IMG/VR virus record: IMGVR_UViG_3300001460_006335
Span: 18,224 to 82,223 of that record
From: a virus
Strand: one strand, 5' to 3'
Length of the DNA stretch: 64,000 bases
The notes under the pieces are model-generated. The model was not told the origin of the DNA. It searched no databases and saw only the letters and a program-made list of their open reading frames with translations. Positions within the stretch are counted from its first letter, which is position 1. Each line of letters begins with the position of its first letter. The translations under genes and the position numbers were made by a program. Shown piece by piece: positions 18,144 through 50,100 of the stretch.

Positions 18144-18704
18144 TCATGCTCCTGCAATGGTGCTTTTTGTATTTTCTACATCACCAATGTCTTTGCTTTC
18201 TCCTTGCGGAGCACCATCTAACGGGTCGTTATCTCTTTCTTTACGTGCAGTTTCTAATTCTTTTAACAAGTCCATAACTCTATTAACACCTGAGTCTTGT
18301 TGTGCTGATTCTCCGCCCATGTCTTCCTGGGTTAGTTTTGCAGTATATTCCTCTTCAGATTTTTCTTGCTGATATAATTCTTGAGGTTCATTTGGATTAC
18401 GTACAATAATATGACTCTGTGGTACATCACAGCATGATCCAATATATTCTTGTAATACTTGTACAGTGGTTGGATATGTACAGGTTACTTCATAATAGTG
18501 TACTTCTGTATTTTCTAACTGTGGAAAATCTAACGGACGTTCTTGTATTGGTGTCTTTTTACCTGCTGACATTTTTGTACAACCAAATTTCTGCAAGCAT
18601 CTTTCTATCATATCTTCACAATTATCAGGCAAATTACCCGCTATTCCAATTTTAAAATCATAAGTCTTTTTAGACTCTTGTAAATAATCAGCAAATTCTT
18701 TCAT
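18144..18704 (-). CDS. Conserved unknown protein with capsid-targeting-like N terminus
   Basis: A 186-residue protein. MKEFADYLQES resembles the capsid-targeting sequence of T4 internal proteins (MKTYQEFIAEA), including the L/I-x-E site for gp21. The body has a ferredoxin-like look (YDFKIGIAGNLPDNCEDMIERC, then EVHYYEVTCTYPTTVQVLQEYI), typical of a conserved T4-like phage protein of unknown function, and a charged disordered tail. AGGA precedes the start, and a late element overlaps the gp16 stop upstream. Confidence 0.65.
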   Translation of the reverse strand: MKEFADYLQESKKTYDFKIGIAGNLPDNCEDMIERCLQKFGCTKMSAGKKTPIQERPLDFPQLENTEVHYYEVTCTYPTTVQVLQEYIGSCCDVPQSHIIVRNPNEPQELYQQEKSEEEYTAKLTQEDMGGESAQQDSGVNRVMDLLKELETARKERDNDPLDGAPQGESKDIGDVENTKSTIAGA

Positions 18705-27321: not shown

Positions 27322-28476
27322 ATGCCGAGACTAAGTTTATATAGACCAGAAAAATCAAAAGATTACAGTTTTCTAGATGGAATTATTCTAGAACAATTTA
27401 CTGTTGGTGGTACCGATGTACTTTTACACAAATATGTCGGAACAAAAAATCCTACAGCTGAAGAAGCTACAAAAGAAAAACCAATTTATGAAAATGAATC
27501 AGTATCAAATATTCAAGATTTATTATTTTTAGAAAATAGAGATAGAAAATATGATCAAGATATTTACTCAATTAGAGGACATTACAATGTTCAAGATAAC
27601 GATTTTGATTTAACTCAATTTGGTTTGTTTTTACAAAACGATACATTGTTTATGACAGTGCATATTAACAGTAGTGTGAAAACATTAGGGAGAAAAATTA
27701 TAAGTGGTGATGTTATTGAATTGCCACACTTAATAGACGAATATGCACTAAACGATGCAACAGTAGCATTAAAAAGGTTTTATGTAGTTGAAGATGTTAA
27801 CAGAGCAAGCGAAGGCTTTAGTCAAACTTGGTATCCACATTTGTATAGACTTAAACTAAAACAAATATATGATGGACAAGAATATAAAGACATACTTGAT
27901 TTGCCTTCCGAAGAAGGAAGCGATCAAACATTACGAGATGTATTATCAACGTTTGAGACAGAAATGCAGATTAACAATGCAGTAGTTGCACAAGCAGAAG
28001 ACAATCTTCCACAAGCTGGTTATAATACAAAACATTTTTATACAATAAGTGTTGATACTAACGGAGAAGTAAGTATAGTGACTGTTGACGATGATGTACT
28101 ACGAGCTGATTTTGATGTTGATGTTTCAAGCGTGATTGATCCTGCTCCTCAAAGTGGTTATAAAGGATATTTAGTAGGCGATGGTACTCCTCCTAATGGA
28201 GCTCCATTTGGAACGGGAATTGGGTTCCCGTCAAATAGTAGTGTTGGAAGTTACTTTTTACGTACAGATTTTGTACCCAACAGACTATTTAGATATAATG
28301 GAAATAGTTGGAAGAAAGTCGAAGATGCTGTACGAACAACAACTACGCCAGACACTGTTAAAAATACTCTAAAAGGAACATTTATTAATAATGCTACTGT
28401 AAATACAATCAACGGCGAACAAGTTACTGAAAGACAGTCTCTTAGTAAAGCATTAAAACCAAAGGCAGATAATTAA
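27322..28476 (+). CDS. 14: gp14-like neck protein
   Basis: A 384-residue protein (T4 gp14: 256). The start at 27322 (MPRLSLYRPEKSKDYSFLD) matches the family; the upstream extension is hydrophobic nonsense across the promoter. The core has IYENESVSNIQDLLFLENRDRKYDQDIYSIRGHYNVQDNDFDLTQFGLFL, a GDVIELPHLIDEYALND loop and FYVVEDVNRASEGFSQTWYPHLYRLKLK, the pattern of neck protein gp14. The C-terminal extension (from about 240) is Gly/Pro/Thr-rich. It is followed by gp15 with a TAATG overlap. Confidence 0.75.
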   Translation: MPRLSLYRPEKSKDYSFLDGIILEQFTVGGTDVLLHKYVGTKNPTAEEATKEKPIYENESVSNIQDLLFLENRDRKYDQDIYSIRGHYNVQDNDFDLTQFGLFLQNDTLFMTVHINSSVKTLGRKIISGDVIELPHLIDEYALNDATVALKRFYVVEDVNRASEGFSQTWYPHLYRLKLKQIYDGQEYKDILDLPSEEGSDQTLRDVLSTFETEMQINNAVVAQAEDNLPQAGYNTKHFYTISVDTNGEVSIVTVDDDVLRADFDVDVSSVIDPAPQSGYKGYLVGDGTPPNGAPFGTGIGFPSNSSVGSYFLRTDFVPNRLFRYNGNSWKKVEDAVRTTTTPDTVKNTLKGTFINNATVNTINGEQVTERQSLSKALKPKADN

Positions 28477-30218
28477 TGCAATATTTTTATGATGGACAAA
28501 TAAGAAGGTATCTTACACAAATTGTAAGAGCTTTCAGTAATTTTAATTACAAAGACGGTGACGAAGAGTTACGTCAAGTGCCTGTAACATATGGTGATTT
28601 GACAAGACAAGTTGCAAATATTATTAGAGATAATAGTGAAAATAAAATGCCTTCTGTACCAAGAATGGCTGTATATATTACTAGTATGCAAATGGATAGA
28701 AGCAGACTAAGTGATAGTAGTTTTATAAGTAAAATTAATATTAAAGAACGTGCATTTGATGAAACTAGTCAAACATATTCAACTACACAAGGAAGCGGAT
28801 TTACGGTAGAAAGATTACATCCGACGCCTTATGTTTTAGGTGTAAATGTGGATGTATGGAGTTCTAATACAGAACAAAAATTACAGCTATTAGAACAAAT
28901 TTTTATGATGTTTAATCCTGATTTAGAATTCCAAACAAATGACAATTATGTAGATTGGACAAGTTTAACTGTACTACAACTTGAAAATATTAATTTTAGT
29001 AGCAGAAGTATTCCGGTGGGAACAGAAACAGAAATAGATATTGCTACATTAAGTTTTATTGCTCCTGTTTATATTTCACCGCCAACAAAAGTTAAAAAGC
29101 TTGGTGTTATTACTGAAATAATTAATAGTGTGTTAAATTTAGATGCTAATACAATAACTTTAGATGGATTTAATCCTGATACAAGTGATCAAACAAAAGT
29201 TGCAGACGGATTTGTCGTATTACCTGATGGGTCAGTAGTTAGTAATAATCCAAATGAACCAAAAGAAGCAAAATACGATGAAGATGGTAATGTTGTTTAT
29301 GATGGATTACGCCCTGAAGATAGTAGAACTACTGTTATAAAAACTTCAAATGACGGAAATATAAATGTAGCTAATGTTAACACAGCAACCTATAGAAATT
29401 TTGATATATTAATTGAAAAACGATTAGCTAAACTTGCTAAAAATGCGGCAAATCTCAATAACATAAATTGGTTAAATGTTTTAGAAGCAGAAGCTCCAGC
29501 AAAATTCCAACCAGGAATAAGTCAAATAAGACTAAAAAGAGCTGAATTATTAACATCTATTGTAGCTACATTTGATTTTGTTAATAATAATACACAAGAG
29601 ATTGTTTTGACATACGATGTTGATACTTTACCAGCAGATACACTTTTACAAGGGCCAACTAAAAATGCAGGAACAGTTGATTATATTATTAATCCACGTA
29701 ACTTTGATCCTACTACTGTAAAAGCAAACGGTGTTCGACTTTTACTTTTACAACCCATAGGCGGACAAATTGAAAGAATATTTACCGCAAGTAATAGCAC
29801 CACACGAGTAGAAACAGAAGTAGATGCTGATAGAGTGTACGATATTGATTTGTATATTAATAATATACGTAAAACTGATGTTACATCACAAGAAACTATT
29901 GATGGTAGTTTAGTATTAAAAATACAGCCAGACGATATGCCAAGACCAGGCGAAGAAGTAAGGTATGTTTTATACATAAACGAAGATGGAGCAGATGCGT
30001 GGAAATCTACAACTGACCGAGACTTTGTAGCAGATACTGGAGATATTTGTGAATGGTCTGGTACTGAATGGCAAATAATTTTTGATGCTAGTCAAACAAA
30101 AACACCAACTTATGTAACAAACTTAAACACAAGTCAGCAGTTTTACTGGAATAGTTTTTACTGGCAGTTTTCAGTTGATGGATATTATCCAAGAGGAAGT
30201 TGGGATTTAATAATATAA
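28476..30218 (+). CDS. 15: gp15 proximal tail sheath stabiliser
   Basis: A 580-residue protein whose first 230 residues match T4 gp15 (272): YFYDGQIRRYLTQIVRAFSNFNYKDGDEELRQVPVTYGD, MAVYITSMQMDRSRL, then LHPTPYVLGVNVDVWSSNTEQKLQLLEQIFMMFNPDL. gp15 caps the head-proximal end of the sheath and tube and binds the neck. The 350-residue C-terminal extension is Asp/Asn/Thr-rich with beta-like repeats and is unlike T4. It is translated immediately after gp14. Confidence 0.82.
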   Translation: MQYFYDGQIRRYLTQIVRAFSNFNYKDGDEELRQVPVTYGDLTRQVANIIRDNSENKMPSVPRMAVYITSMQMDRSRLSDSSFISKINIKERAFDETSQTYSTTQGSGFTVERLHPTPYVLGVNVDVWSSNTEQKLQLLEQIFMMFNPDLEFQTNDNYVDWTSLTVLQLENINFSSRSIPVGTETEIDIATLSFIAPVYISPPTKVKKLGVITEIINSVLNLDANTITLDGFNPDTSDQTKVADGFVVLPDGSVVSNNPNEPKEAKYDEDGNVVYDGLRPEDSRTTVIKTSNDGNINVANVNTATYRNFDILIEKRLAKLAKNAANLNNINWLNVLEAEAPAKFQPGISQIRLKRAELLTSIVATFDFVNNNTQEIVLTYDVDTLPADTLLQGPTKNAGTVDYIINPRNFDPTTVKANGVRLLLLQPIGGQIERIFTASNSTTRVETEVDADRVYDIDLYINNIRKTDVTSQETIDGSLVLKIQPDDMPRPGEEVRYVLYINEDGADAWKSTTDRDFVADTGDICEWSGTEWQIIFDASQTKTPTYVTNLNTSQQFYWNSFYWQFSVDGYYPRGSWDLII

Positions 30219-30231
30219 AATAACTATTTGT

Positions 30232-30690
30232 ATGGACAAAATAGTTTGTAGTGGTGCATTATTTTATGCACAAGATACTGAAAGATTTTTACTTCTACAT
30301 AGAACAAAAGGAAAAACCAAAGGCAAGTGGGGGCTTGTTGGCGGAACAGCTGAGGATCAAGAATCTCCGTGGGAATCTTTAAGTAGAGAAATAAATGAAG
30401 AAATAGGCACAGTAAACAAAATAAAAAAAGTTTTTCCTTTAGAAACTTTTATAAGTAGTGATCAACATTTTAATTTCCATACCTATCTTTGTATTGTTCA
30501 AAATGAATTTTTACCAAAGTTAAACGACGAGCATGATGGGTATTGCTGGGTAACATTAAACCAATGGCCTAAACCACTACATCAAGGTGTCCAAAATACA
30601 TTAAGAAATAAAAGAAATTATAATAAATTAGAAACAGTAATAAAACTCATTCATGTGTTTCTTGACGATCAAGCTGTTGACTTAACTTAA
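30232..30690 (+). CDS. Nudix hydrolase
   Basis: A 152-residue protein with a perfect Nudix box at residues 38-59: G-x5-E-x7-R-E-x2-E-E-x-G (GGTAEDQESPWESLSREINEEIG). Nudix enzymes hydrolyse nucleoside diphosphates linked to another moiety, such as damaged NTPs, ADP-ribose, nucleotide sugars or RNA caps; T4 NudE is a phage example. The substrate here is not readable. Its last 44 bp overlap convergently with the 1099-residue glycosyltransferase gene. No clear Shine-Dalgarno is present. Confidence 0.85.
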   Translation: MDKIVCSGALFYAQDTERFLLLHRTKGKTKGKWGLVGGTAEDQESPWESLSREINEEIGTVNKIKKVFPLETFISSDQHFNFHTYLCIVQNEFLPKLNDEHDGYCWVTLNQWPKPLHQGVQNTLRNKRNYNKLETVIKLIHVFLDDQAVDLT

Positions 30691-33600
30691 TAACTTGTAA
30701 AATATCACCTTTATAAGTTATACTTTTTTCCTGTAATGCATCAACAACAGATAATTCATTTTCTAATATTTGTTCAAATATCTCTTGATCAAGTTCAATA
30801 TATGTTTCTTTTTTGTTATCTTTCTCTATAATACCATTATTATCTATGCTAATTGATCCAACTTTATTAATGTTTATTTGCATATCTAATAATTCATTAT
30901 CAACAATACTTGATAGAGCTATTCTATGTAATGCTATTTTGGTCTCTTCTTTATGTAAAACCTGCTGTTTTAAATCATCAAAAAATAGCATTGCTAAGTC
31001 TGCATCACCTTCTAATAAAAAATCACCACGCTTGTACATTTCTACAGAATCATCTTCCATTTTTAGAAGTTTTAAGCCTGTTTTAAGATCTGTTGTTATC
31101 TCTGTATCTGCATATTCGCTACTTACTCTTACACCTTTTTTATCCCAAAATAAATCTCCAACATTAGTGACTGATAACTTTACACTACCATGCTGAAATT
31201 TATAATTCTTTCCTAGCTTATTTTCAATTTCTTTAAACATTGTGCTTACAATAGGATTAAACGCTTTAAGACTTTCTTCCTCAGAATAATCTAAAAAGTC
31301 CAAATCAAAATCAAAAGATTTTGGTGGATAAGTATCCTTAAATCTTTTCTTCAACCATTCAAAATCATTTATTTTTTTCAAAGCATCTGGATTATTTTTC
31401 CATTTAATTCCATACTTTGCTCCTTCATATGCACCTGTTATTGTTTCAGCACCAAACTCCTTTTCTTGTCCTCTTGAACACCAAGACTTTAATCTAAATG
31501 TTGTTTCGTCATCCTTTTGTCTATTAATTGTCCTACTAGAAAGTTTTACACATTCTCTAAATCCACTTCTCCAAGCACTAAAGCTATCAGTATTGAATGC
31601 TGTAATATTACTCATGCGAGGAATACCTTTAAAGTTTTTACTTATACTTGTGGTCATATCAGCAGTATTAACATCCATATTCAAAGTAAGGTTTGTTGGT
31701 AAAAGTTTTACGCCGCCATATCCATAAACTAATCCGTTAACAGGATTCATACTCCTCCATACATATACAGTACGTTTCCCATCTATGTCGTAATATGCAA
31801 TTTGATAATCTAACTCAAAGTCCATTAGTAATTCGGCATCACCGTCAACTACCCAAAACATTTCAGTATCTACAAGCTTTGCGGCTTCGATATGTGCTTG
31901 GTGTATTCCTTTAACTTTATCAACTCTTTTAGCATTAGGGTATGATGAAGTCAATCTTTCATAATTTTTATCAGCATTATTTTCACCGTTACTAATAAAG
32001 ACAATATCAAATGTACTAGGATAACTTCCAACCTCGGTATATTCTTTTTTAATTGCTAAAAATCTATAATCTATTTCGTGTTTTGTAAGAACTATATTTT
32101 TTGTTACTAGTGCAACTCCATCGTAGTATTCACCATTCTTCCACACATGATTAATTTTTCTTTCATATTGATTATGATGCGATATGTACATATTAAAATT
32201 AAAATCTTCCACAACATTAATATCATGATATATAATCCAAAACATTCCTGTTTTTGATGTTTCTTTTGCTTTTAAGTAATCGTCATAATCTTTTATAATA
32301 AATTTATCAAATGGTTTAGGAGTACTTGCAACTACTTCATGTTCTTTTTTATTAATAAAAAATCTATGATTAATTTCTTTTTCAGTTGCTATACATTCTT
32401 TGCTCATTAAAGCTATTCCATCATAGTTCTTATCATTTAAAAATACATGATTTATTTCTTTATCAAATTTATTGTGATGACTAAAGTACAAATTAAAATT
32501 GAAATCGTCTTTTACATCTACATCGCTAGGAATAAGCCAAAACATTTCTGTTTTAGAATCTTGTAGTGCTTGTAAATAATCTTCATAATTATTAATTGTA
32601 AACTTTTCATAAGGGCGAGGAATGCTTGCTATTATATTATGTTCTTTATTACTTACAAGAAATCTATGATTTATTTCTTTTTTTGTAACCTTAAAACTTT
32701 TACTAAAAAGAGCAACACCATCATAATGTTTATCATTTAAAAATAAATGTGTAGTTCCTGTATCTAAGGTTTTTTGTTCTGCTATCCATTCGTCTATATT
32801 AAAATTTTTATCCAATATCACATCATCTGGAACACCGAGAAAAACATGAGTTTTACTTGTTTCTAATGCCTTTTCGTAGTCTGCATAATTGTTCATTCTA
32901 AACACTTTAATAGGGTGAGGTTTAGAAGCTACGATATTAGTTTCTATAGGATTAACAACAAATCTATATGCAATTTCTTTTTTTGTAACAATAGAATGTT
33001 TGCTAAACAAAACAACTCCGTTGTATTTGTTTTTATTTAAAAATACATGATTTTGTTTTCTTAAAGATTTATCGTGGTGACTAATATAATAATCAAAATC
33101 AAATTCTTCAATAATTTCTACATCAGACGGAACTCCCCAGAACATATCATTAGTTGATTTACGTGATGCATTTTCGTAGTCTTCATAATTATCAATGATA
33201 AACCTTTCGTATTTTTTTGGAGTACTTGCCATAATACGAACTTCTTTTTTATTCACATAAAATCTATGTTCTAATTCTTTTTCTGTTATATTATAATTTT
33301 TTGGAAATAATGCTACTCCGTCTAGTTGATCAATATCGCCATTGCCAAACACATGGACAAAATCATGACTCCATTCGTCTGGCTTAAAACTAAATTTAAA
33401 TGTATTTCTAACATCAACATCTTCCCATATTACCCAAAACATATCTGTGTAGCTACGTTGTTGTGCTTCTTGCCATGTTTTAACTGTTTGTAGATGCGGA
33501 ACTTTTTGCTGTATAGAATTTATATCGTCTTGATTTTCTCCTATGTAAAAGCAATCAAATTTGCTATTGCCTTTATATACATCATATTCTCCACAGATGT

Positions 33601-33946
33601 GAATATGCTGTCGTGGTTCATGCTGTGTTTTTTTAGTTGGTACTAAACGCACTTTATCCCAACTTTTTATTTTTCTACTTTCTTTGTACACATAAGGAAA
33701 TTCGTGTATTTGTATAATGTCGTTTGACCTTGGTTTGAACCACCAAGGAAAGCTATCAAATACTTTAATGTTTTTATCAACTACCCACACATAATCGCTA
33801 TCTATATTTTGTTGATAAACTTTGTCAAGATCACAATAGTCATCTATCCTTAATACTGGATATCTATCAAATATAAGATTTTTTAACTGATCTTGTCCGT
33901 TGTGTAAAGGCTTAGAAAATTTGTTAAATCTGTCTATGGCTTTCAT
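30647..33946 (-). CDS. Giant tandem-repeat glycosyltransferase-like protein
   Basis: A 1099-residue protein. After a divergent N-terminal unit (VWVVDKNIKVFDSFPWWFKP), five units of about 100 residues run from about 151 to 650 with near-exact period: each has D/S-x-MFWxxxxDV, F-x-F-x-x-Y-x-SHH, NHVFLN-x-x-x-YDGVALFSK, TKKEIxxRF and a KKE...ASxPxP end. A sixth, complete unit follows with MFWVVDGDAELLMDF (DGD at 701-703), an intact metal-binding GT-A motif, while the repeats have only SD, DD, HD or ED at that place. The C-terminal 300 residues (WRSGFRECVKLSSRTI, RLKSWCSRG) complete the transferase. It overlaps the preceding GT gene by ATGA. Confidence 0.75.
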   Translation of the reverse strand: MKAIDRFNKFSKPLHNGQDQLKNLIFDRYPVLRIDDYCDLDKVYQQNIDSDYVWVVDKNIKVFDSFPWWFKPRSNDIIQIHEFPYVYKESRKIKSWDKVRLVPTKKTQHEPRQHIHICGEYDVYKGNSKFDCFYIGENQDDINSIQQKVPHLQTVKTWQEAQQRSYTDMFWVIWEDVDVRNTFKFSFKPDEWSHDFVHVFGNGDIDQLDGVALFPKNYNITEKELEHRFYVNKKEVRIMASTPKKYERFIIDNYEDYENASRKSTNDMFWGVPSDVEIIEEFDFDYYISHHDKSLRKQNHVFLNKNKYNGVVLFSKHSIVTKKEIAYRFVVNPIETNIVASKPHPIKVFRMNNYADYEKALETSKTHVFLGVPDDVILDKNFNIDEWIAEQKTLDTGTTHLFLNDKHYDGVALFSKSFKVTKKEINHRFLVSNKEHNIIASIPRPYEKFTINNYEDYLQALQDSKTEMFWLIPSDVDVKDDFNFNLYFSHHNKFDKEINHVFLNDKNYDGIALMSKECIATEKEINHRFFINKKEHEVVASTPKPFDKFIIKDYDDYLKAKETSKTGMFWIIYHDINVVEDFNFNMYISHHNQYERKINHVWKNGEYYDGVALVTKNIVLTKHEIDYRFLAIKKEYTEVGSYPSTFDIVFISNGENNADKNYERLTSSYPNAKRVDKVKGIHQAHIEAAKLVDTEMFWVVDGDAELLMDFELDYQIAYYDIDGKRTVYVWRSMNPVNGLVYGYGGVKLLPTNLTLNMDVNTADMTTSISKNFKGIPRMSNITAFNTDSFSAWRSGFRECVKLSSRTINRQKDDETTFRLKSWCSRGQEKEFGAETITGAYEGAKYGIKWKNNPDALKKINDFEWLKKRFKDTYPPKSFDFDLDFLDYSEEESLKAFNPIVSTMFKEIENKLGKNYKFQHGSVKLSVTNVGDLFWDKKGVRVSSEYADTEITTDLKTGLKLLKMEDDSVEMYKRGDFLLEGDADLAMLFFDDLKQQVLHKEETKIALHRIALSSIVDNELLDMQININKVGSISIDNNGIIEKDNKKETYIELDQEIFEQILENELSVVDALQEKSITYKGDILQVIKLSQQLDRQETHE
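31997..33496 (-). repeat. Five in-frame 300-bp repeats in the giant glycosyltransferase gene
   Basis: These encode residues about 151-650 as five units of about 100 residues. NHVFLN, YDGVALFSK and KEINHRF recur at the same phase in units two to five. Nucleotide identity is only moderate, so the duplications are old but the length has been held. Confidence 0.85.
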
Positions 33947-34527
33947 AATGTGTATGCCTTTGTTCCTATATGTGCTAATTTTATATCAGCATCTATCCAT
34001 ACATCTACGCCGTGATGCATTGCCTGATTGCAAAAGTATATATCTTCTCCGCTAAACGTATCGTCTATTTTATTATATTCGTGATTAAACCAAGGTTTAG
34101 GCAATGTATAAAATACATTTTTATCAATCAACATACATCCCATTCCTACAGCCCAAATTTTATGTAGCCCACTAGAAACACCTAATCTATCTTTTATATT
34201 ATCTGGATTAGTAAATGCTACAGTTTGATAAGGTGGATATCTTGTGCTATAAGTTGCTCCAACAATATCTTTATTATGAGAATTTAGCTTGTCTACTACA
34301 TTTGAAGGAAATTGTATATCACTATCCAAAAATAATATTTTATCACTATTTACAGATAAAGCTTCGTTAACAAGTCTTGTGCGTGACTCACAGATTACAC
34401 TTCCGGCAAACAGATGCAATTCGAAATCTATTTGCTTGCGGGTAAGTCTATTGGTCAGATTAACTAAACTTTGTGTAAACAGAGTGTGTACTTGATCTCT
34501 GCAAGGAACACATATACTAATTTTCAT
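33943..34527 (-). CDS. GT-A glycosyltransferase (GT2-like)
   Basis: A 194-residue single-domain protein. KISICVPCRDQVHTLF is the donor-binding start, CESRTRLVNEAL resembles the NxARN helix, KILFLDSDIQFP carries the DxD at 68-70, and AVGMGCMLIDKNVF...GEDIYFCNQAMHHG matches the acceptor region with its ED motif. It is translationally coupled to the genes on both sides (TAATG and ATGA). It probably acts with the giant repeat protein on the same glycan. Confidence 0.8.
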   Translation of the reverse strand: MKISICVPCRDQVHTLFTQSLVNLTNRLTRKQIDFELHLFAGSVICESRTRLVNEALSVNSDKILFLDSDIQFPSNVVDKLNSHNKDIVGATYSTRYPPYQTVAFTNPDNIKDRLGVSSGLHKIWAVGMGCMLIDKNVFYTLPKPWFNHEYNKIDDTFSGEDIYFCNQAMHHGVDVWIDADIKLAHIGTKAYTL

Positions 34528-34901
34528 TAAATTGTAGTATTTGGTATAAGTTCTTCGTTTAGGTCTTTTTCAGCATCGATGGTATTTTGATTTAATTTCC
34601 TTGCTGTGCTTGTTGCAACTTTTACAGCTTCTTGAAAATCATCACCTAATCCTCTCATAGCCAACATATTTTCTGGCTGTACTTTGCCTAATGTAAGCAA
34701 ATCGATACCTGCTGTGATACCAAATTTTTGTATCCAATGATGTCTTTCATCATCTTCTGGAATATCCATAGCATCAATAGCTTCAACAGCTTGATTAAAC
34801 AAATCTTTTTCTAGCTCCATTGTTGTGACTAGATGTTTTTTCCTTGCTTTTGTATATTCATCAGCTAGGTGTACGTTCATAATTTCGTATAATGTTATCA
34901 T
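34527..34901 (-). CDS. Uncharacterised 124-residue helical protein
   Basis: The start at 34901 (MITLYEIMNVHLADEY) is chosen because GGAGA lies 5 nt upstream. A longer frame from 34940 would overlap the small gene upstream and has no site. The sequence is all-helical and charged (LEKDLFNQAVEAIDAM, DDFQEAVKVATSTARKLN). No family is recognised. It is directly upstream of the GT2-like gene. Confidence 0.65.
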   Translation of the reverse strand: MITLYEIMNVHLADEYTKARKKHLVTTMELEKDLFNQAVEAIDAMDIPEDDERHHWIQKFGITAGIDLLTLGKVQPENMLAMRGLGDDFQEAVKVATSTARKLNQNTIDAEKDLNEELIPNTTI

Positions 34902-34917
34902 AAGTTCTCCTGTTAAA

Positions 34918-35088
34918 TTATGGAAAATAATATCCGCCAAAACTACTACTCATTGATATAGTAGCCTGGTTACCTATACCTATATATGGTCCTAAATCGG
35001 CACTGAGTCTAATTGTGGACGATGGTCCACTGAAATAGTTAGAGATTTGACTCATTGTAATTGTGCTTCCTGTATTAGGTAAAGCCAT
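34918..35088 (-). CDS. 56-residue virion-type small protein
   Basis: ATG at 35088, stop at 34918-34920. The sequence MALPNTGSTITMSQISNYFS...TISMSSSFGGYYFP has the MALPxTGxIxxSxI start and ISMSSxxG end seen in short structural proteins of marine T4-like phages. Upstream are AGGAA, a consensus sigma70 promoter and a late element. The product probably sits on or near the tail fibre, whose gene precedes it. The function is unknown. Confidence 0.6.
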   Translation of the reverse strand: MALPNTGSTITMSQISNYFSGPSSTIRLSADLGPYIGIGNQATISMSSSFGGYYFP

Positions 35089-35154: not shown

Positions 35155-38100
35155 CTATTTATCGGTTAACTTTTTAACCATTCTTTTAAGATCATCAATT
35201 TGAGTTTGCTGTGCTTTTATTGCTTCGATAAACACACCTGCCATAGCACCATAGTTTACAGTTTTAATACCTGATTCTTCATGTGTGGTTACAACCTCTG
35301 GGAAATGCTCTTCTATTTCTTGTGCAATTACACCCATGTGTCTTGTTTCAGTATCAGCAAGATCAGTACGAGTAAAGGTTACACCTCTTACACTTAGTAT
35401 CTTTGTTAATGGATCTGCAATAATTTCGATATTGTCTTTTAGAGTAGCATCAGAGAACGCTGTAATTTCGCCTGATGCTGTAAAGTTACCACTGCTTATA
35501 TCAAAAGTAAATCTTGTTGCGTTACTGCTATTACCATCTCTAAAGTATATATCATCGTCTGAATTCAGATCAAAATACAAATCCGAACCATTATGATAAA
35601 TTTCTGCATCGTCTCCTGTACCAAAGTTTAATTGAATACTATCATTAAATCTTAAACTACCTGATGTTTTTTGATCTGCTGAATCACTACGCAAGAACTG
35701 TGAACTATCTAAGTTGTCAAGTGTGCCTGCATTTGTTGCTGTAACACCAGTGATACCGCTACCATCTCCTGATAGACTTGTACAACTTACATTTCCGCTT
35801 ATGTTTATGCTTCCTGTACCGCTTAGTGTACCAGTGAAACTATCATTTGCATCGCTACGTAAAAAACTTCCTGAGTTTACACCGTCAAGTGTATCAGCAT
35901 CTAATCCACTACCAGTACCGTCATTAGCTGAAGTCCATACAGTGTAACCAGTGCCATCAACATAGTGTTGTAATCCGGTTGTTCCGTTGCCAATATCTAG
36001 TCTGTCATTGTTTTCGTCACTTGCTAAACGTAGTATTCCTCCAGAGTCTACAAATTGAATATAAGCTCTTCTTGTAGTACCTTGATAAAAGCCAATATAA
36101 GGATTACCTGTTGCACTAGTGTCACTAAGTTTTAGTTGTTCGCCGCTTCTACTTGTTGTTAAAAGTCCAGTAATAGTGTCATCAGCATCACTACGCACAA
36201 ACGAACCACTATCTATACTATCAAGTGTTGTAGCATCTACGTTTGTAAGCCCACTACCATTACCAGTGAATGTGCTTGTGCCGATATTAACATTACCAAA
36301 GTTAGCAGTAATTTCACCTGCGTCTAATGCACCAGTACCTGTTAAGTTACTATATGTTCCATCAATCCTTGTGTTTGGTACTGTACCGCTTGCAAGATAA
36401 CTTGCATTAAGTGATTGTACGTTACTACCATCAGCAGTGTACATTGATGCGGCATATAATGCACCAGCAACACCCAAACCACCGCTTACTCTTACAGCGC
36501 CTGTTGTAGTACTTGTTGATGAACTTGTGTTAGCAAATGTTACCACTGCATTTGAATTAAAATCAATACTAGCTCCATTATCTGAAGTAATACTATCTAA
36601 AGCAATACTACCAACATTTGTAATATTATTATCATTAAAGCTTGTTGCACCAAAAGAACAAGCACCTGTTCCAGTAAACGAACTTGCTCCAATATCAATG
36701 TTACCAAATCCTGTTGATATACTTCCTGCATTAAGTTGTCCGGTTGCTGTAAGATCAGCTTGGTGTTGTGTAACACCGCTTGATTGGATACGTGCATCTG
36801 GAATTGTACCACTTGATAATTGTGTAGCAACTAGATCAGTTAAGCCACCTCCATTTCCAGAAAATGTACTAGTACCAATATTAATGCTACCAAATCCTGA
36901 TGTAATACTACCACCATTTAATATACCAGTTGCAGTAATATCTGTTTGGTGTTGTGTAATTGCACTTGAAGGTACTCTTGCGTCTGGAATAGTACCACTT
37001 GTAAGGTCACTTGCACTAGCATCACCTATGAAGTTATCAGCTTTTATATCTTTTGCTACGTGTAATCCGCCTGTCATTTTAACTGATGCACTACCACTTG
37101 CAAAATCACCTGTTGCATTTGTAGCATCTGTGAACGTAACAAAATTATTTGCTGTAAGGGTTGTAAATGCGGCTGAGCTTGGTGTTAAATTTCCAATTGG
37201 AATGTTATTAATAGCATCTGCTATAAGCACGCCACCTGCAGAAATAGTTAAGTCACCATCTGTAGTTAGATTGTTTCTTACTGTTGTTGTGCCAGTTGTT
37301 GCACCCATTTGAATAGCTGTTGCCGCTTGTCCAAATGCAATAGTAGTTACATTATCTTTAAGTAGGTTAAACGTTGCAGTTTCATCTGTATCTAATGATG
37401 TACCATTAATTGCTAAGTCGTTAGTAATAACAATGTTTGTATTTTTCAATGTCATTGTACCAGTTGTAGCACCAATATTTAATGTTGATGCCGCATCTGC
37501 AAAATTTACAGTGGTTGGAGTAGTGTTAGCAATGTTAATACTTGCATCGCTAAATGTTAAATCTCCTCCATCAATTTCGATGTCACCGTCAACGTTTAAG
37601 TTGTTTTGTATAGTAGTTGTACCAGTAGCGGCACCCATTTTTAAAGCTGTGGCCGCTCTAGCAAAGTTAACAGTTGTAGCAGTAGCATCTATTAAGCCAA
37701 ATGTTGTACTACCTGTTGTAATACTTGTTGTAATTTCTGGGCTTGTACCAAAAACAGCAACTCCAGTGCCAGTTTCGTCACTTAATACACCAGCTAATTG
37801 TGCCGAAGTAGTTGCCGCGAATTGATTTAGTCCGTCATCTACTCTTGCAATAGTACCGCTTGTTGGTAATGTTACACTTGTGTTTCCTGTTGTAGTAATT
37901 CCTAATGTGTGAGCACCGGTGTGTGTAAACGATCCGCCTAATGTAATAGTTTTTGAACCGTTGTTAACACCTGTTCCACCGTATGTAGGATCTATAATTG
38001 TTCCATTCCACACACCTGTAGTAATTGTGCCTAATGTTTGTAGACTGGAATTAACTACTGCTGATCCTAATGTTGTTGCATTTAATACACTAGCATCGTT

Positions 38101-41100
38101 TATAAAGTATTCTTTTCCACTAGCAAGATTAAAGTCTTGATTTGAATCCCAAGTAGTATTAGCGTGATCCCAGGTTAAAGTAGCACTTGCACCATCTATA
38201 GTAATACCTGCACCATTTGCCGCTGAACTATCTGCGGCTCCGCTTGCAATAACAATATTTTTATCATCAACTGTAAGTGTTGTACTGTTAATAGTAGTTT
38301 GACTTCCGTTAACTGTTAGATCACCTTGTACAACTAAATCATGTCCGATTGTAGTTGATCCACCACCATCGCCACCTGTACCCATTTGTATAGTAGTAGC
38401 CGCTCCAAATGCATTTACGCTAGTAGCATTTGTGTTAATTAGATTAAAAGTAGCCTGATCCGTAGTAATATCTCCACCGTCTACTTCTAGGTCGGATGTA
38501 ATTTCTACATTACCATTTGTGCCTGTAATTTTAATTCTATCTATTATAGCAGATCCGTTATAATTACCAATAACAATATCATTACCACCAGCATCATGCT
38601 TAATATGGCCAACAGCCGTTCCGTCTGCTTGCTCAAATACAATTTGGTTTCTATCAGTATTTGCACCTCGTTGCATTGTAAAAGTAGTATCTGTTCCAGC
38701 TGTTTCTTTAATATGTAATGTAGTGTCCGGCTCATGTTCACCGATTCCTACATGACCTTGTGTATCAATTTTCATACGCTGTTTACTTGTATGCTTAATA
38801 TCACCAGTGGTTGAAACATCACCTGTTTTGATAATTACGTCTCCGCCTGTTCCGTTACCTGTACCTAAACCGCCCTCAATACTAATACTTCCTCCGGATT
38901 TATCTGTACCAATACCAGATGTGCCTAAGAGTCTTCCAGGTTCTGGAGTAGTTGCGTGTTCTGCATTTCCTAACACAAACTTTGTATTTTTAACTACAAA
39001 GTTTGAATCAATAGTTAATGCACCAGCCGGGGTATCACCATTTGATGCTGTAACATTAGCATCTGTTTGGAAAGTAAACGATGTAGCATTTTCTGTAGCA
39101 CCAGTTACAGGCCATGACCCATCTAGATTTGCTATTGTACTTGAAGCAACATTAATTGTATCACCAACGTTTATACCTAATGTAAATGGTGTATAAGTAA
39201 AAGTTAATGTTAGTGCAGATGCTACAGTACCTGTTGTTTCTGCACTTAGATATATAAAGTTTTCAGTTACACCAGTTACTGTTGTGTTTGCCGGAATAGA
39301 TGCACTACCAGTTATAAGCATACCTGATAATATTCCTGTCGTTGATGTTAATGGAATTTCTTTATCGCCATTTGCCGCAACACCATTTGTAGTTTGAGTA
39401 ATACTGGTTAAGTTAGCTACCACTGATTGGCTTGCGTTTGCTTCGTAACTAGCAAGTAGTGTAAATATATTCCTTGTATCTGCTGTACTACCAAAAGCAA
39501 TATTTGTTGCGGCGCCACCAATTTCTAAGCTTGAAACATTTGCATTATAAACTTGTCCAGCACCTGTGCTTGACGAAGTAAGTTTTGCGGCACCAACATC
39601 TAATCCTTCTGCAAGATCAAGTGCAGTACCCCACTCTGGTATACCAGTTGCTGATACTTTTAAAACAGAGTCTTTCCTACCAATATTTAACGGATTCAAT
39701 GTACCTGTTGTTGAAGCATAAATTATATCTCCAACAGCATATGTGGTTAAGTTTGTGCCGCCTCTATTTACAGGAACAGCTGATGTTAAGTTTGCTGGGT
39801 TCAAGAAGTATGCACTATCTAGTGAATCTAATGTACCAGCATCTATTACACCATCCTTAAGAAAAACTTGTCCACTAGCATCTGAAGCAACATCAAATTG
39901 TGATTGTAAAAATCGTGATGTTCCAAGTGTACTAAAAGTTCCACCAGGATTGAGATCAATATTGTTTACACCTACATTTACTGTTCCATAAAATTCTTGA
40001 CTAATGCTACTACCTGTAAGAGTTATTGGATTATCTGTGGTTGATGCTTTTTTCAATTTTTGTACAACTACAGAATATGCACTATCACCCCTTAAGAATG
40101 TATCACTATTAGGAGTACCTGCTCCACCCAATCTACTTGGAGATACTATACCAGAAATAATGTTACTTGCGTCAATATTTGTAACAGCAAGTGAATTCCA
40201 ATTAGATACTGTTTTACTAGAGGAGTTTACTTGCGAAATAACTTGAACATTTTGTTGTATTACCTCAGCACTACCAACACCAATACCGTCAATGTCTTGT
40301 GCATTAGTAACCAAATCATTAATACTACTTAAAGCATCTGATCTTAACGTATGCAATGTAAAAGAGTTTGTTGTTACAGAACCAACAAAGAATCTAGAAC
40401 CTGATGCAATAGCTGTTCCACCTACAGAAAATAATGCATTTGATGAGCTACCGTCTGACAAGGTAACAAGTCTAAGTGCGTTACCTGTTGTAAATCCGTG
40501 TCCTTCAACAATAATACTATTATCAGTTATGTTAACAGTTTTTCTTGTAAGGTTATGATTATTATTTGCTGGAGTTGTTAAGAACTCTACTTTGTTAAGT
40601 AACGAAAATCCTTCGTACAATTCAATTGTATTTGCATCAATAACTTTTACATAAACAACTTGAGTATTTGTTAACCCTCCAATTGGCACATTTGTAAGTG
40701 TGTCATATGAAACAGGATCACCAGTTGTAAATCCGTGGTTTGTAATTGTAATTCTATCATTAGTATAGTCTACGTTACCACTACCACCGGATGAACCAGC
40801 TAAGAAGTTTTTAGAAATGTTATCATCTAAGTTTATTGTTTTCTTATTTGCAATAGCTGTGTTATCTTCAACAAAGTCAACACTTGATGTACTTGCAACA
40901 AATAACACACCACCAATAATATCAACATATATACGTTTTTCAATAGCAGTACAAACAATTTTAAAACCACTACCTGTGCCGCCAATGTCTGTAGGGCTTG
41001 CACCAAGCTCGTCGCCTGACGCATATCCTGTACCACCTCTTATTAGGTCAACATCTGTTATCTGTCCTGCTGTGACTGTAATATTTGCCCTAGCACCAGT

Positions 41101-44100
41101 TCCACTTCCTGTTACGGCTGTCATTGGAATATTTTTGTATATTTTACTTCCGGTAGTTGGGGTATATAAACTACCGCCAGTAATTGCCGCATTGTCAACA
41201 CCAGTTGCTACACCAAATCTTGTTTCTGTAACTTTACCTTGTGCATCACCATCAGCACTTTTTACAACTGTCCCTACTGTACCGCTAGTTACACTAAAAC
41301 TACCAACATTATCAGGATCAACATTTGCATATGTAAATGATGTTGCAGTAGGTGTACTAATAACTACTGCATTTTCATCAAATGTTGAATTATCAGCTAT
41401 AGTAACATTGACAGTATTTCCAATTTGTAGATTATGAGCGCCACTGGTTGTAATAGTAGATACATTACTTGTTCTAGCCGCATTTGCTATAGCATTGGTT
41501 GTAAATGTATAATTTGGTGTAGGATCTAAAACTAAGAACTGACTACTATTAGATGTTTTTATAAAGAAGTTATCAACTATTTCACTAACTACGCCAAGTG
41601 CAGTTGGATATACTCCGGAGTCAACACCGTCTACAAATAAATTATTTCCAGCGCCTGTTGCCCATTGTGACCCTGTACTATCATCACCCGCAATCCATTC
41701 ACCAGTAATACTTGCAACCAAAATGTTACCACTATTACCATAGAGTCCTTTAGCATAGCCTGTAGCACCAAAAGAAGTAGGTTGTGTTATTGTTGCTCCG
41801 TCTGCCGCTGAAATATTTCCACTTAATGTTAATTCTTGTTGTTCATAGTTTTCAGTACCAATATCGCCAGCCTTTAAATCTACAGCCGGTATATCGTCAA
41901 TTTGATCTAGTCTTGAAAGATATCCAAAAGTATTTGTATTTGTAAACTGTCGTGTAGCAGGAATCAAGTCAGCGTTTAATTGTCCGTTAACATTAAGTTG
42001 AACAATAGCACCCGGTACTGCCGCAGTACTCACAGTTTTATCAACAAATCCACCTAGTCTATTACTAATAAAGGATCTCACAGCTAACTGGGTTGATAAT
42101 CTAGTATTAGTTGCACCACCTAATTCGTCATCACCTAAGTTAACACTTGTTGAAATTTCTTCAATAATAACATCGGAAACACTTAATCTCAAAGCATCAA
42201 GTTCGTCCACCTGTACTTTGTTTCTAAATGTAATGTTACCTGTTCTGTTAAACGCTGTAATAAAGTCACCAACTTTAAAGTCACCAAGTTCGTTTGTACC
42301 TGATGAGTATACACGCCCTGGTAGTTCTTCAAACTGTTCAAACTCTGCTTTGGTGTTACCACCGTTTTGCGGTAGTGCGTTATAGTCTGTACCCGAACCT
42401 GCATATTCCCATGTGTGAGAAGATGAGTTAACAATACTAGGTCTATGGAACCATACTTGACTTTCAGGTAAATTGCCTAAATTTGTTAAACTACTACTTC
42501 CGTCTGTAGCTTTTACTGAAAATGTAGCACTACCTAATCCTGTTTTTGCTTGAACGGCATTAACCCCAATACTTGCATTTGGAGTTCCTGCGTGGTCTGC
42601 TGTGATAACACTTGTAGCATCAAATTGAATACGTAACAAACTACTTCCAACTGCAACTTGTTCAACACTTACAATAAGTCTACGTTCTGCTGGTTCCCAA
42701 CTAGAAACAATAGCACTGTTATTACTTGAACCTGTTGTACCAGCTATCGATTTACCTGGAGTAAAAACAAAACTTTCTGATCCAGACTCTAGTTCTAATT
42801 GCTGGTATGTTGTGTGCGAAGATGTTATCTCTTGTACAAAAAATTCAATTACTCCTGATAGGAACTTATGACTTCCTGTGCTTAATACTCTAATATCGAC
42901 TGGAAAATCTCCAGATTCATCAAAAGTAAGTTTAAATTCATCGTCATTAATTATGTTTATGTAGTATGTTTGTTCTTCGTCTAGTCCACCTAATGGTGTA
43001 TTGCCGTTAGCAGTATAAATTACTTTTTGTAAATTTGCAAATCCATGTCCAGTAATAGTAATGACATCAACACCTATGTTTACATCTGTAGCCGCATTAA
43101 ATGATTTTTCAGTAGCATTAGTTTTAAAATTGTTTGTTGTATCACCTTCAGAACTTACATCTTGTGCATCTGGTAAATCACCAGGATCATTAATAATTGT
43201 AGTAACAATATCAAATCTTGATGAGACAAAGTTTTGTGTTCCCGCAGATACTGATGTAATATAAGTTAATGCTAAATCTCTTGCTTTTTTGATTGCATCA
43301 ATTGTTTGTCTCTCTTGTCCACTAATACTAATTTGTGACGAGTCTGCTAAATTTTTTGTGTAATAAGAAAGTCCAGCACTTCTTGAATATCTGTTACCAG
43401 TATCCCAGGTATCTTTTGCTACAGCCTCAACAATTAATTTTGTATCTCTTAAGCACTTGGCTGAATCGTATACAAAATTATACCATTTAGCGGCTTCAGT
43501 TTGTGTTTCGATATATCCAGATACATTTTGTGCAATATTTTTTTGACCTTCTGCATTTAATCGGATTAAGTCATCTTGATACGCTTGTGCAACCCAGCTA
43601 ACGCCTGGATCAATTTTTGTTGGTTGTGTTGCTCCATCTGCTGTGATAAAATCTATAACTTCTTGCATTCTAGCTTGTACAAAAACTGCGGTATCTGATC
43701 CGCCTGCTGTACCTGATACATCCTGTGTTACAGTATTTCCAGATTTACCTATGTTTACAGTAATAGTATTGCCAGTTACTGATGCTATTGATAAAGCAGT
43801 GCCAGCGGCTGGATCAGTTGATCTTGGATATGTTTTGGTTACAGTATTACCATCTGTATCACAAGTAAATGATAATGAATTTGTAACTATTGTTGCTTTA
43901 TCGCTTGTAGTAAAACTGTGTGAACCTATAGTAATAACACTTAGACCTGTATCAGGATCATATGTTGCATTTGTAACATCTCTTTGAACAGTTGATTGAT
44001 TTGGTGCTGTTATAGTAACCGCATTTGTTACAGTACCACCTACATAAGTATGAACTCCTCCACCACTTTTAGTTACTGTTTGTTCTTGAACAATTTGACC

Positions 44101-47061: not shown

Positions 47062-47193
47062 CTAGAACAACAAAAAGTCAATAATAATTGTTAGTATTAT
47101 ACCTTTTGCGAATGCAATCCAAGCTATACCATACCAGCCAATACCTAGTTTATCACTATACCATTCTATTTGTTTTTTATGCCAAGCTATCAA
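47062..47193 (-). CDS. 43-residue single-span membrane microprotein
   Basis: TTG start at 47193 overlapping the stop of the 3450-residue gene by 4 nt; stop at 47062-47064. The sequence MIAWHKKQIEWYSDKLG, then GWYGIAWIAF, then GIILTIIIDFLLF, has an amphipathic basic start and a C-terminal hydrophobic helix. It is too regular to be chance: the frame is open with a typical membrane profile and is coupled to the gene before. Similar short proteins occur in marine T4-like phages. The role is unknown; a lysis or envelope role is only a possibility. Confidence 0.6.
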   Translation of the reverse strand: MIAWHKKQIEWYSDKLGIGWYGIAWIAFAKGIILTIIIDFLLF

Positions 47194-50100
47194 AATGAAC
47201 CGCCGTCTATTGTGTCTGTCCAAATTGGAGTATCATCGCCTGAATCTGTTACTGTTAGCATTTGGAATGATGTATTAATATCTGCACTACCTGCCGCTTC
47301 TGTAACTTGCAATTGACTTGTATTATCTCCATAAACAATACCGTTTGGAACAAAGCTACTTCTACCAGTACCACCATATTGTACTTCTAAATCAGTTGTT
47401 AATGATAAGGTTCCTATTGCTCCGTTTACAACAGTAAGTTTATTATTAATAGCGTCAATAATTTCAGTACTATCATCAGCAACAACACTACCTCTAAAGC
47501 TTGAAGCATCAAGCACACCTGTAACAAATAAGCTTTGATCTACTTGTACATTATTTGTAAATGTACTAGTTGTGTCACTTATTCTAAATTTTTCAATACC
47601 AGCTGTACCGTTAACCATTGTTTTGAATACCATATCAAAATCTTCTTGGTTACCAGTAATATCAATTGCTGTAACTTCAATTTGTCCGCCTACTTCAAAA
47701 TTGTTATTTGAAGTTTCTAATTCAAATTTAAGTCCTGTACCACTACCAACTGTTGGAGATCCACTAACACTATGATGTGCTAAACTAACTGGATATACTA
47801 CATCGTCGGCGGCACTATCCGGTGCATTAGTAATAATTTTTAACGATTCAGGAGATTCAATAGTATCTGCTTTTATTAATATTTTATCACTTGCAACATT
47901 GGCTAGTGTAAGCACTCCGCTATTATCACCACCTATAAATCCTTGTACGTGTAAATCTTTAGCTATTCCAGCACCACCTGATACAACTAATCCGCCGGTT
48001 TGATAATCTGTACTTTCAGTAGTATTTTGTACATTTAGAATAGTTGTTGTACCAATATTAAATTCGGTGTTAGAAAGTGTTGCCCGTTTAGTTCCTTCTG
48101 TATAAAAGTCTAATTCATTGTTATCAGCACCAGGTGTATCTTCAGCTAAGATATATGTATTTTGATCTACATCAATTACACCACCTAAGCTATTCCACGC
48201 TACACCATCGTAACCTTCAAATGCATTTGTAGTAGTGTTAAATCTAATTCTACCTGTAACATTTGTTGGACGCTGTCCTGTGGTACCAACCGGAATTTGG
48301 AAACCAGCAACACTATCTACAATTACAACCTCGTTGTTTATAGTTAATGTACCTGTTGCCGCTCCTATGTTAACTGATGTAGCGGCTCCAAACGCATTTA
48401 TTGTTGTAGCATTTGTATTGAATACATTGAAAGCACCTGTTTCATCTGTAATAATATTTGTGCCATTTACTTCAACATCTCTATCAGCTTTTAAATCTCT
48501 ATCTGCTGTTATATCATTACCAGCATGGATATCTTGTTGTGTACTTAACCCACCTGTAATTTGTACTGCACCAGTTGTGCTACTTGTAGCATTTGTGTTA
48601 TTTTGTACAACAAGTTTAGGTGTTGTACCAAGTTTTATAGATTCTGAACCATCTGTTGTTACAATGTCTAAGTATTCACTTAGGTTTTCGTGTATTCTAA
48701 AATTGTTAATACCAGAATCTGGTATATCAATATCTATTTTACCTTTAATAGTATGTGCGTTTACAGTTCTGTCTGTACCTAGTGTTAAGTTATCATCAAT
48801 GTCTGCACTGCCGCCTACATTAATATTCTTTTCAATACCGGCTCCACCATCTACTATTAACGACCCTGTATCTTTACTTGTACTATCAGTTGTATTAGCA
48901 ATAATTACACTTGGTTGTTGACCAAAGGTTACTGATTCTTCACCTGATCTAGTATTAATACTAATGTAATCTTCTGTTCCTTCTGTAATACTATATGCTT
49001 GTAATTCTTCGTCCGGTATAGTAATTGCAACATCGCCTGTAAATATCAAATTACCATTTACAGTTAATGCGCCTTGAACTGTCATATCAGGATTAATAGT
49101 TACTAGTCCATTTGCGGCGCCTAAATTTATAGCCGTTGCTTGTCCAAATGCGTTAACTGTTGTTGCGTTTGTGTTTAATAATTCAAAAGCACCAGTTGAA
49201 GTAGTTGAAATAACACTACCATTTACATCAAAGTTTCCGTTTAGTGTAACGTTTCCTTGAACTGTACCACCAGTTAATTTATTTAGATATCTAGCTTCAA
49301 CATAATTAGAAACAGCTCTTTGAGTAGGAGCAGTATTTAAATCCTGTGTACCTAAACTTGAAACAAGTGCTTCATTATCACTAACCTCTTTTAATTCTAC
49401 ACCAACTGGAATACCGTTTCTAATGAAAGGTCCAACACTAGTTAATCCTGATAAATCAATTTCATTAGCATTAAGTGTGATGCTACCTGTTAATGCATTT
49501 ACACCAAAGAAGTCACCAACTCTAAAGTTACCGATTTGGTCAACAGTACCACCTGCAAAAACTTTACCTTGATTACTTTGTATAATTTCTGTTGAAGGAA
49601 CAGCCGTACCTCCAAAGAACGGTAGTGCATTATATGTTATACCTGCACCTACATATTCAAATGCGTGACCTGAAGTACTTACTGTACTTACATTATGCAA
49701 GCTACCTAACTTATCAGTAGTTACACTTATTATTCCTGGAAATAAGTTAACATCAAATCTACCACCATATTGTAAGTTTAATGCTGAAATAGCATTGTCT
49801 ACAATAGTTTGTTCAGCGGCAAGTATAGTATTACGTTCAGTCAAATAAATGCTGTTACCTAATGTTAAGTCAGGTTCTCTTTCAAACCAACCACTTACTG
49901 ATTTATTATAAATCGAATCTGCTAATCTATTAATCAATAATTCACAAGTTGCACCCGGATATGTTGCTGTTCCTATCAAGGTACTTCCGTCTGGTATAGT
50001 TTGTATCTGATTAAATGTGTTGCCAAAACTTTTTGTTACAGTATCATTTATTGAAACTTTAGCAATAATATCTGCAAGATAGTAATTAGCATATGCAGTT

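Follow-up and report, generated by a model that had tools for sequence, protein, structure and literature searches.

The window analysed here, 64,000 nucleotides (nt) of viral DNA (positions 18,224 to 82,223 of IMG/VR record IMGVR_UViG_3300001460_006335, an 82-kb virus fragment), contained a gene for a putative glycosyltransferase (GT) preceded by a tandem array of related units. Its open reading frame (ORF) occupied 30647–33946 on the minus strand, where an earlier note made from the letters of the window had placed it; it started with ATG and encoded 1,099 amino acids (aa). From the N-terminus, the protein could be divided into a divergent unit (unit 0), five units of about 100 aa (units 1–5), a GT domain of the GT-A fold and two SCP2-like domains (Table 1). 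The AlphaFold2 model of the full chain had a mean predicted local distance difference test score (pLDDT) of 82.9 and a predicted template modelling score (pTM) of 0.50. Relatives were collected as 174 loci, cited below by L numbers, by scanning viral contigs three times and genome contigs once; the profile used on viral contigs was the five-unit alignment, and the largest IMG/VR scan gave 576 encoding stretches.

Self-comparison of the protein showed an optimum at a lag of exactly 100 residues, with a BLOSUM score of 836 and 159 identities in 348 positions (residues 206–553), and weaker self-matches at lags of 200, 300 and 400. The top score in 300 shuffles (lags 40–399) was 58, so that the near-exact period and phase described in the earlier note were borne out. 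The unit profile matched residues 152–244 (a truncated match), 246–344, 347–444, 446–544 and 546–643, and gave a shorter match within the final domain and a divergent one at 29–106. This last match, which the earlier note had overlooked, represents a sixth, divergent unit (unit 0; E 2e-3 in the window protein), which was stronger in L009 (E 2e-5) and in L011 and L012 (5e-5). In 263 of 293 cases among the relatives, the spacing of successive units was 99–100 aa. The motifs said to occur in each unit did not stand as a literal list, since MFW was found in four of the five units, SHH in three, exact NHVFLN in two and exact YDGVALFSK in one; in the looser forms DV/DI, H[VL][FW], [YL][DN]G[VI][AV]L and [KH]E[IL]xxRF they were present in all five, and the list holds at the level of the family.

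For the window gene, a tandem array at the level of the DNA was rejected, as was recent slippage, because Tandem Repeats Finder found no array in the gene, the repeat existing in the protein only, and because the units are orthologous by position (see below). Since no DNA tandem array was present and the units of the window protein shared pairwise identities of only 33–50%, the duplication is old.

When a profile built from 118 non-catalytic units alone was searched against the relatives, their catalytic domains matched at E-values as low as 2e-12, compared with 0.009 for the best of more than 1,000 shuffles. Alignment of the units with the catalytic domain by hhalign gave a probability of 98.1 (E 1e-13, 60 columns). 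These comparisons supported homology between the units and the final domain's GT-A core, the relationship on which the earlier note had made its proposal depend. The shared core began at the helix preceding the DxD strand and ended with the GGVKLLP-type strand. After this core, the enzyme continued for about 95 residues with the invariant DMTTSIS, FNT and W[KR]SxFREC, while a unit had about 25 residues (KEIxxRFxxxKKExxxVAS) before the next unit began. The units thus lacked the catalytic/acceptor C-terminal half and were incomplete as active GT-A domains; the β1-α1 element was kept in unit 1, within an N-terminal β-α-β half, and missing from units 2–5. The final domain, taken by the earlier note for a last copy of about 100 residues, was a full GT-A domain of 229 residues with 28 extra residues before the core and about 95 after it. 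The other units, described there as degenerate copies, were indeed non-catalytic and related to the enzyme, but are better termed truncated GT-A cores than degenerate full copies. The model of the units alone had a pLDDT of 90.3 and a pTM of 0.64; the rod suggested in the earlier note would be one possible arrangement of the units. Because structure comparison of this model gave scores for unit 1 only (Z 8–9, to GT-A and nucleotidyltransferase folds), the GT-A identity of units 2–5 rests on sequence homology.

At the position of the DxD motif, units 1–5 of the window protein had WED, PSD, PDD, PSD and YHD; the metal-binding position was degraded as the earlier note had said, with the first Asp gone and the third position retained. 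Among the relatives, an intact DxD was found in 0/382 units and in 162/162 catalytic domains (DGD or DAD). The first Asp was missing in all 382 units, and the third position was Asp in 277 of them. Homology to the enzyme and this distribution of DxD supported a catalytic unit accompanied by non-catalytic copies. Unit 0, tallied separately from the 382 units, kept LVDPD or LFDPD, a possible intact DxD, in L005, L006, L132 and L137. The statement that only the last unit is intact therefore held for the window protein but is not general to the relatives.

Residues 645–783 of the model had a GT-A fold, with B4GALNT1 (Z 10.9, 140 residues aligned, 2.8 Å) and WrtF (Z 9.8) as structural matches; SunS/ThuS also matched, and Foldseek returned K4CP (2.6e-5) and SunS (5e-5). 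The domain contained the DxD motif DGD at residues 701–703. No triplet could be assigned as the xED catalytic base, and the invariant WxSxFREC helix may supply the acidic residue. No named GT family scored above its curated cut-off (best Pfam match GT2, E 0.11), no PHROGs family matched, and a sequence search against solved structures gave no match. On motif and model, the protein has one probable active site, in residues 644–872.

The two C-terminal SCP2-like domains (residues 894–1096), also overlooked by the earlier note, were recognized by fold (Z 11.9 and about 11), and the order of secondary-structure elements in domain 2 was the same as in domain 1. The Pfam SCP2 profile scored 29.6–35.8 bits (cut-off 21.3) in L002, L003 and L086 and below the cut-off in the window protein; membership of the SCP2 family, by fold and profile, is thus given by the sequences of relatives together with the window model. 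The pair was fused to the glycosyltransferase only in the clade of the window protein and evolved faster than any other part of the protein. For relatives without the fusion, an adjacent stand-alone SCP2 gene was considered and rejected, as none was present in their gene orders, in which only window ORFs served for matching the flanking genes.

Copy number was tallied over complete distinct ORFs with the enzyme domain, the zero-unit group including paralogues of about 300 aa. There were 62 such ORFs with no unit, 14 with one, 4 with two, 1 with four, 58 with five, 2 with seven, 1 with eight and 1 with nine, so that 81 complete relatives bore units. The comparison across related phages proposed in the earlier note thus revealed a number varying from 0 to 9. 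Free-standing unit arrays were rejected, since every complete ORF with an array carried the enzyme domain. In the enzyme tree, the window's subfamily formed one clade (support 0.999) with nearly all members having five units, and L016 and L017, with nine and eight units, were nested inside it. Weak Pfam matches of the L016 repeats (DUF4309 and a coronavirus NSP3 domain), all below cut-offs, were judged chance matches to repetitive sequence. By tblastn with the full protein, an enzyme-only relative, a one-unit relative and the paralogue of about 300 aa as queries, no relative was found in 50,697 isolate and GenBank phage records. Two further ORFs (L052:5986-8592 and L065:5983-8583) contained two fused catalytic-type GT domains and ended in a part of about 335 aa that appeared methyltransferase-like by eye and had no PHROGs match at E 0.01.

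The tree of units showed grouping by position, with unit 1 apart and the last unit in its own clade, and units 1 to 5 were orthologous across the window's subfamily; the positions are therefore old and maintained, not products of recent slippage. Local expansions were present in L095 (units 2–5, 66–74% identical) and L016 (units 3 and 4, 70%). Ratios of nonsynonymous to synonymous substitution rates (dN/dS) between the window protein and close relatives were about 0.03–0.12 for the enzyme, unit 0 and unit 1 (about 0.05–0.12 for the catalytic domain taken by itself within the window's clade), 0.05–0.4 for units 2–5 and highest, about 0.2–0.4, for the SCP2 part; these are rough Nei-Gojobori values, with dS near saturation in the more distant pairs. 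By these estimates, the units are under purifying selection.

The tail sheath and terminase encoded by the record were nearest to those of Atu_ph07/PA5oct-type jumbo myophages (50–53% identity), and the repeat gene lies in a cluster of tail-fibre and host-recognition genes belonging to an uncultured marine jumbo myophage. The small protein encoded directly upstream matched Anp1 (2.3e-4), phrog_1574 (2e-25) and phrog_12406, glycosyltransferase (5e-6). Two giant fibre-like genes stood in tandem on the minus strand.

Table 1. Features of the repeat gene and its neighbours; positions are those of the window, residues those of the 1,099-aa protein.
Feature	Position	Strand	Remarks
Repeat gene: [unit 0]-[units 1-5]-[GT-A catalytic domain]-[two SCP2-like domains]	30647..33946	-	1,099 aa
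Unit 0, divergent, GT-A-derived	33629..33862	-	residues 29-106; profile E 2e-3; VVDKN at DxD site
Unit 1, GT-A-like, N-terminal β1-α1 kept	33215..33565	-	residues 128-244; WED at DxD site
Unit 2	32915..33214	-	residues 245-344; PSD at DxD site
Unit 3, most divergent among units 2-5	32615..32914	-	residues 345-444; PDD at DxD site
Unit 4	32315..32614	-	residues 445-544; PSD at DxD site
Unit 5	32018..32314	-	residues 545-643; YHD at DxD site
GT-A domain, probably catalytic	31331..32017	-	residues 644-872; structural matches
DGD, putative metal-binding motif	31838..31846	-	residues 701-703; invariant among relatives
SCP2-like domain 1	30953..31267	-	residues ~894-998; Z 11.9 to 1pz4
SCP2-like domain 2	30659..30952	-	residues ~999-1096; Z 10-11
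GT-A-type glycosyltransferase-like protein	33943..34527	-	194 aa; upstream, 4-nt overlap with repeat gene
Conserved ORF between fibre and GTs	34527..34940	-	124-137 aa; phrog_1409
Giant tail-fibre gene, S74 intramolecular chaperone end	35155..46944	-	3,929 aa; PF13884, 5.8e-12
Second giant fibre-like gene	47190..57542	-	3,450 aa
NUDIX hydrolase, convergent, conserved neighbour	30232..30690	+	PF00293, 1.6e-18
T4 gp15-like tail sheath stabiliser, conserved neighbour	28476..30218	+	PF16724, 3.8e-22

In the window's subfamily, the gene order was fibre, 124-aa ORF, small GT, repeat gene, NUDIX and gp15. Of this order, the two immediate neighbours, small GT upstream and NUDIX downstream, were found in 46 five-unit relatives and also in eight- and nine-unit ones; the other five-unit loci were mostly cut by a contig edge or had no GT match within 60 nt upstream. 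The longer order including fibre and gp15 was present wherever the flank was long enough. Relatives with 0–2 units, and some with 4–7, lay in clusters with a second paralogue of about 300 aa and radical SAM/SPASM genes, and the same clusters held further ORFs that appeared GT-like by eye and had no Pfam match. Islands of fibre, GT and radical SAM genes are described as host-recognition clusters of pelagimyophages, for which the authors propose alteration of the host surface (PMC7029224).

Dense runs of radical SAM/SPASM genes, several per locus, flanked the GTs in L042, L047, L052, L074 and L096, which are from uncultured phages. In metagenome-assembled genome (MAG) contigs of Bdellovibrionia (L102:4048-9464 and L103:4042-10643), a pair of paralogues (319 and 229 aa) occurred with SPASM radical SAM genes and adjoined apparently ordinary chromosomal genes (a MoxR-like ATPase by eye). 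Because it was found beside chromosomal-looking genes in these contigs, the GT-radical SAM cassette also occurs outside phages.

We propose, with a rough probability of 0.45, that the protein is an active glycosyltransferase whose GT-A-derived non-catalytic modules bind or position the acceptor. A single working GT-A domain (residues 644–872) would follow a series of GT-A-derived pseudo-domains in the same chain; these may retain a surface of the ancestral core and, being non-catalytic, bind the acceptor or position it for the one active site. As acceptor, a host-surface glycan or glycolipid is conceivable, and so is the tail fibre encoded nearby. The SCP2-like pair might give the proteins of the window's clade an additional site for lipids or other hydrophobic ligands, and such a site would be in keeping with a lipid-linked acceptor. 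During infection, the enzyme would probably serve to alter the surface of the cell (or the adhesin of the virion), the role proposed for GTs of pelagimyophage clusters (PMC7029224). This proposal is built on the shared ancestry of units and enzyme, the absence of the first Asp of DxD from every unit counted, truncation, linkage of array and enzyme, purifying selection and the fibre-gene neighbourhood, as shown by sequence comparison and predicted models.

Three points weigh against it. Foldseek of the units alone gave no significant match in the PDB (best 0.058), the top-ranked entries still being GT-A enzymes; the most conserved unit residues (H55, G65, E79, S96, F84 and R83) could be purely structural; and almost all members of the window's subfamily have five units. 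Because five units are nearly fixed there, a length-dependent function, such as the measuring of a long glycan suggested in the earlier note, received no support, and the near-fixed number is a poor fit both to a ruler that varies freely and to random drift. In a bolder and less likely reading, phages would have made a true tandem protein repeat of the GT-A core; the truncated pseudo-GT units, their number set by subfamily, would hold a polymeric acceptor (glycan, glycolipid or fibre) for the one active site, and copy number would set reach or acceptor length.

Alternatively, the array could be a spacer, an oligomerization surface or an intramolecular chaperone comparable to COSMC, with a part in folding or presenting the enzyme and none in substrate binding. 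Scaffold or chaperone functions are known for inactive GT-A relatives (the inactive GT31 protein COSMC; PMC7185993), and the near-fixed count, the positional orthology and the confidently folded unit model would all suit a stable structural part. However, close relatives have the enzyme without any unit (226 aa), so the units are not required for folding of the enzyme domain as such, and we regard a purely structural array as somewhat unlikely.

Whether the target is the fibre or the host surface is a separate question from mechanism, and its likelihood is not on one scale with those of the mechanistic readings. The acceptor may be the phage's own tail fibre, the giant adhesin encoded upstream being glycosylated while the units dock on its repetitive structure. 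The conserved order of fibre, 124-aa ORF, small GT and repeat gene is consistent with this, and the relatives termed group B likewise follow tail-fibre-like genes. However, the multi-unit L096 and L020 show radical SAM genes and no fibre gene in the flank read, and the role proposed for such clusters (PMC7029224) concerns the host surface, which makes the fibre an unlikely acceptor.

Some units might be active by a metal-independent mechanism, given that GT14 and prokaryotic GT6 keep activity despite loss of DxD (PMC7185993), that the third DxD position is so often Asp in the units and that unit 0 has DPD in some relatives; this is very improbable, as the units lack the entire C-terminal half, where DMTTSIS, FNT and WKSAFREC are invariant, and the β1-α1 nucleotide-binding element is missing from units 2–5. 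A virion structural protein, part of a fibre network and not an enzyme, would agree with a long repetitive chain among tail genes but is hardly credible, because the catalytic-domain residues are invariant and strongly constrained and enzyme-only relatives have other GTs and radical SAM enzymes as their cluster neighbours, in bacterial genomes as well.

Compared with known systems, the catalytic domain has the fold and the DxD motif in common with GT-A glycosyltransferases (B4GALNT1/GT12, WrtF, SunS/ThuS and K4CP). Unlike these enzymes, the window protein has a truncated non-catalytic unit array and SCP2-like domains, and it matches no Pfam, PHROGs or isolate-phage family. The multi-domain enzymes COLGALT1/GLT25D1, K4CP and LARGE1 likewise have an inactive or extra GT-A module besides the catalytic one (COSMC being a separate pseudo-enzyme). 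In these three there is one additional full-size GT-A domain, whereas here one to nine truncated cores of about 100 aa stand head-to-tail, with unit 0 in addition in the window's subfamily. SCP2, UbiJ and alkylsulfatase C-terminal domains share their fold with residues 894–1096, which here form two copies; unlike those domains, the pair is part of one chain with a glycosyltransferase, an arrangement confined to the window's clade. Two uncharacterized proteins of uncultured Caudovirales phages in BFVD matched the unit array in structure: A0A6J5LK21 over 764 columns (Foldseek E 2.5e-17) and A0A6J5L5L5 over 539 columns (6.8e-14).

The GTs of pelagimyophage host-recognition clusters lie, like the window gene, between tail-fibre genes and the neck region together with other GTs, and radical SAM genes accompany the group B relatives as they do those clusters; the pelagimyophage GTs are mostly of GT8 type, with no repeat array mentioned in the accessible part of that paper (PMC7029224), while the window phage is closer to the Atu_ph07/PA5oct type. 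Literature searches on tandem or inactive GT domains returned no such phage family and no account of truncated GT-A cores arrayed head-to-tail. The family is widespread in IMG/VR and located in the gene neighbourhood that decides the phage-host encounter. Its natural ladder of 0, 1, 2, 4, 5, 7, 8 and 9 units on the same enzyme offers a series for what pseudo-enzyme modules add, and suggests that viruses can make a modular scaffold out of an enzyme fold. GT-A enzymes, single pseudo-GT domains and GTs in phage host-recognition islands are already known; new are the serial repetition, one to nine times, of a truncated GT-A core of about 100 aa and the joining of this core to a tandem of SCP2-like domains.

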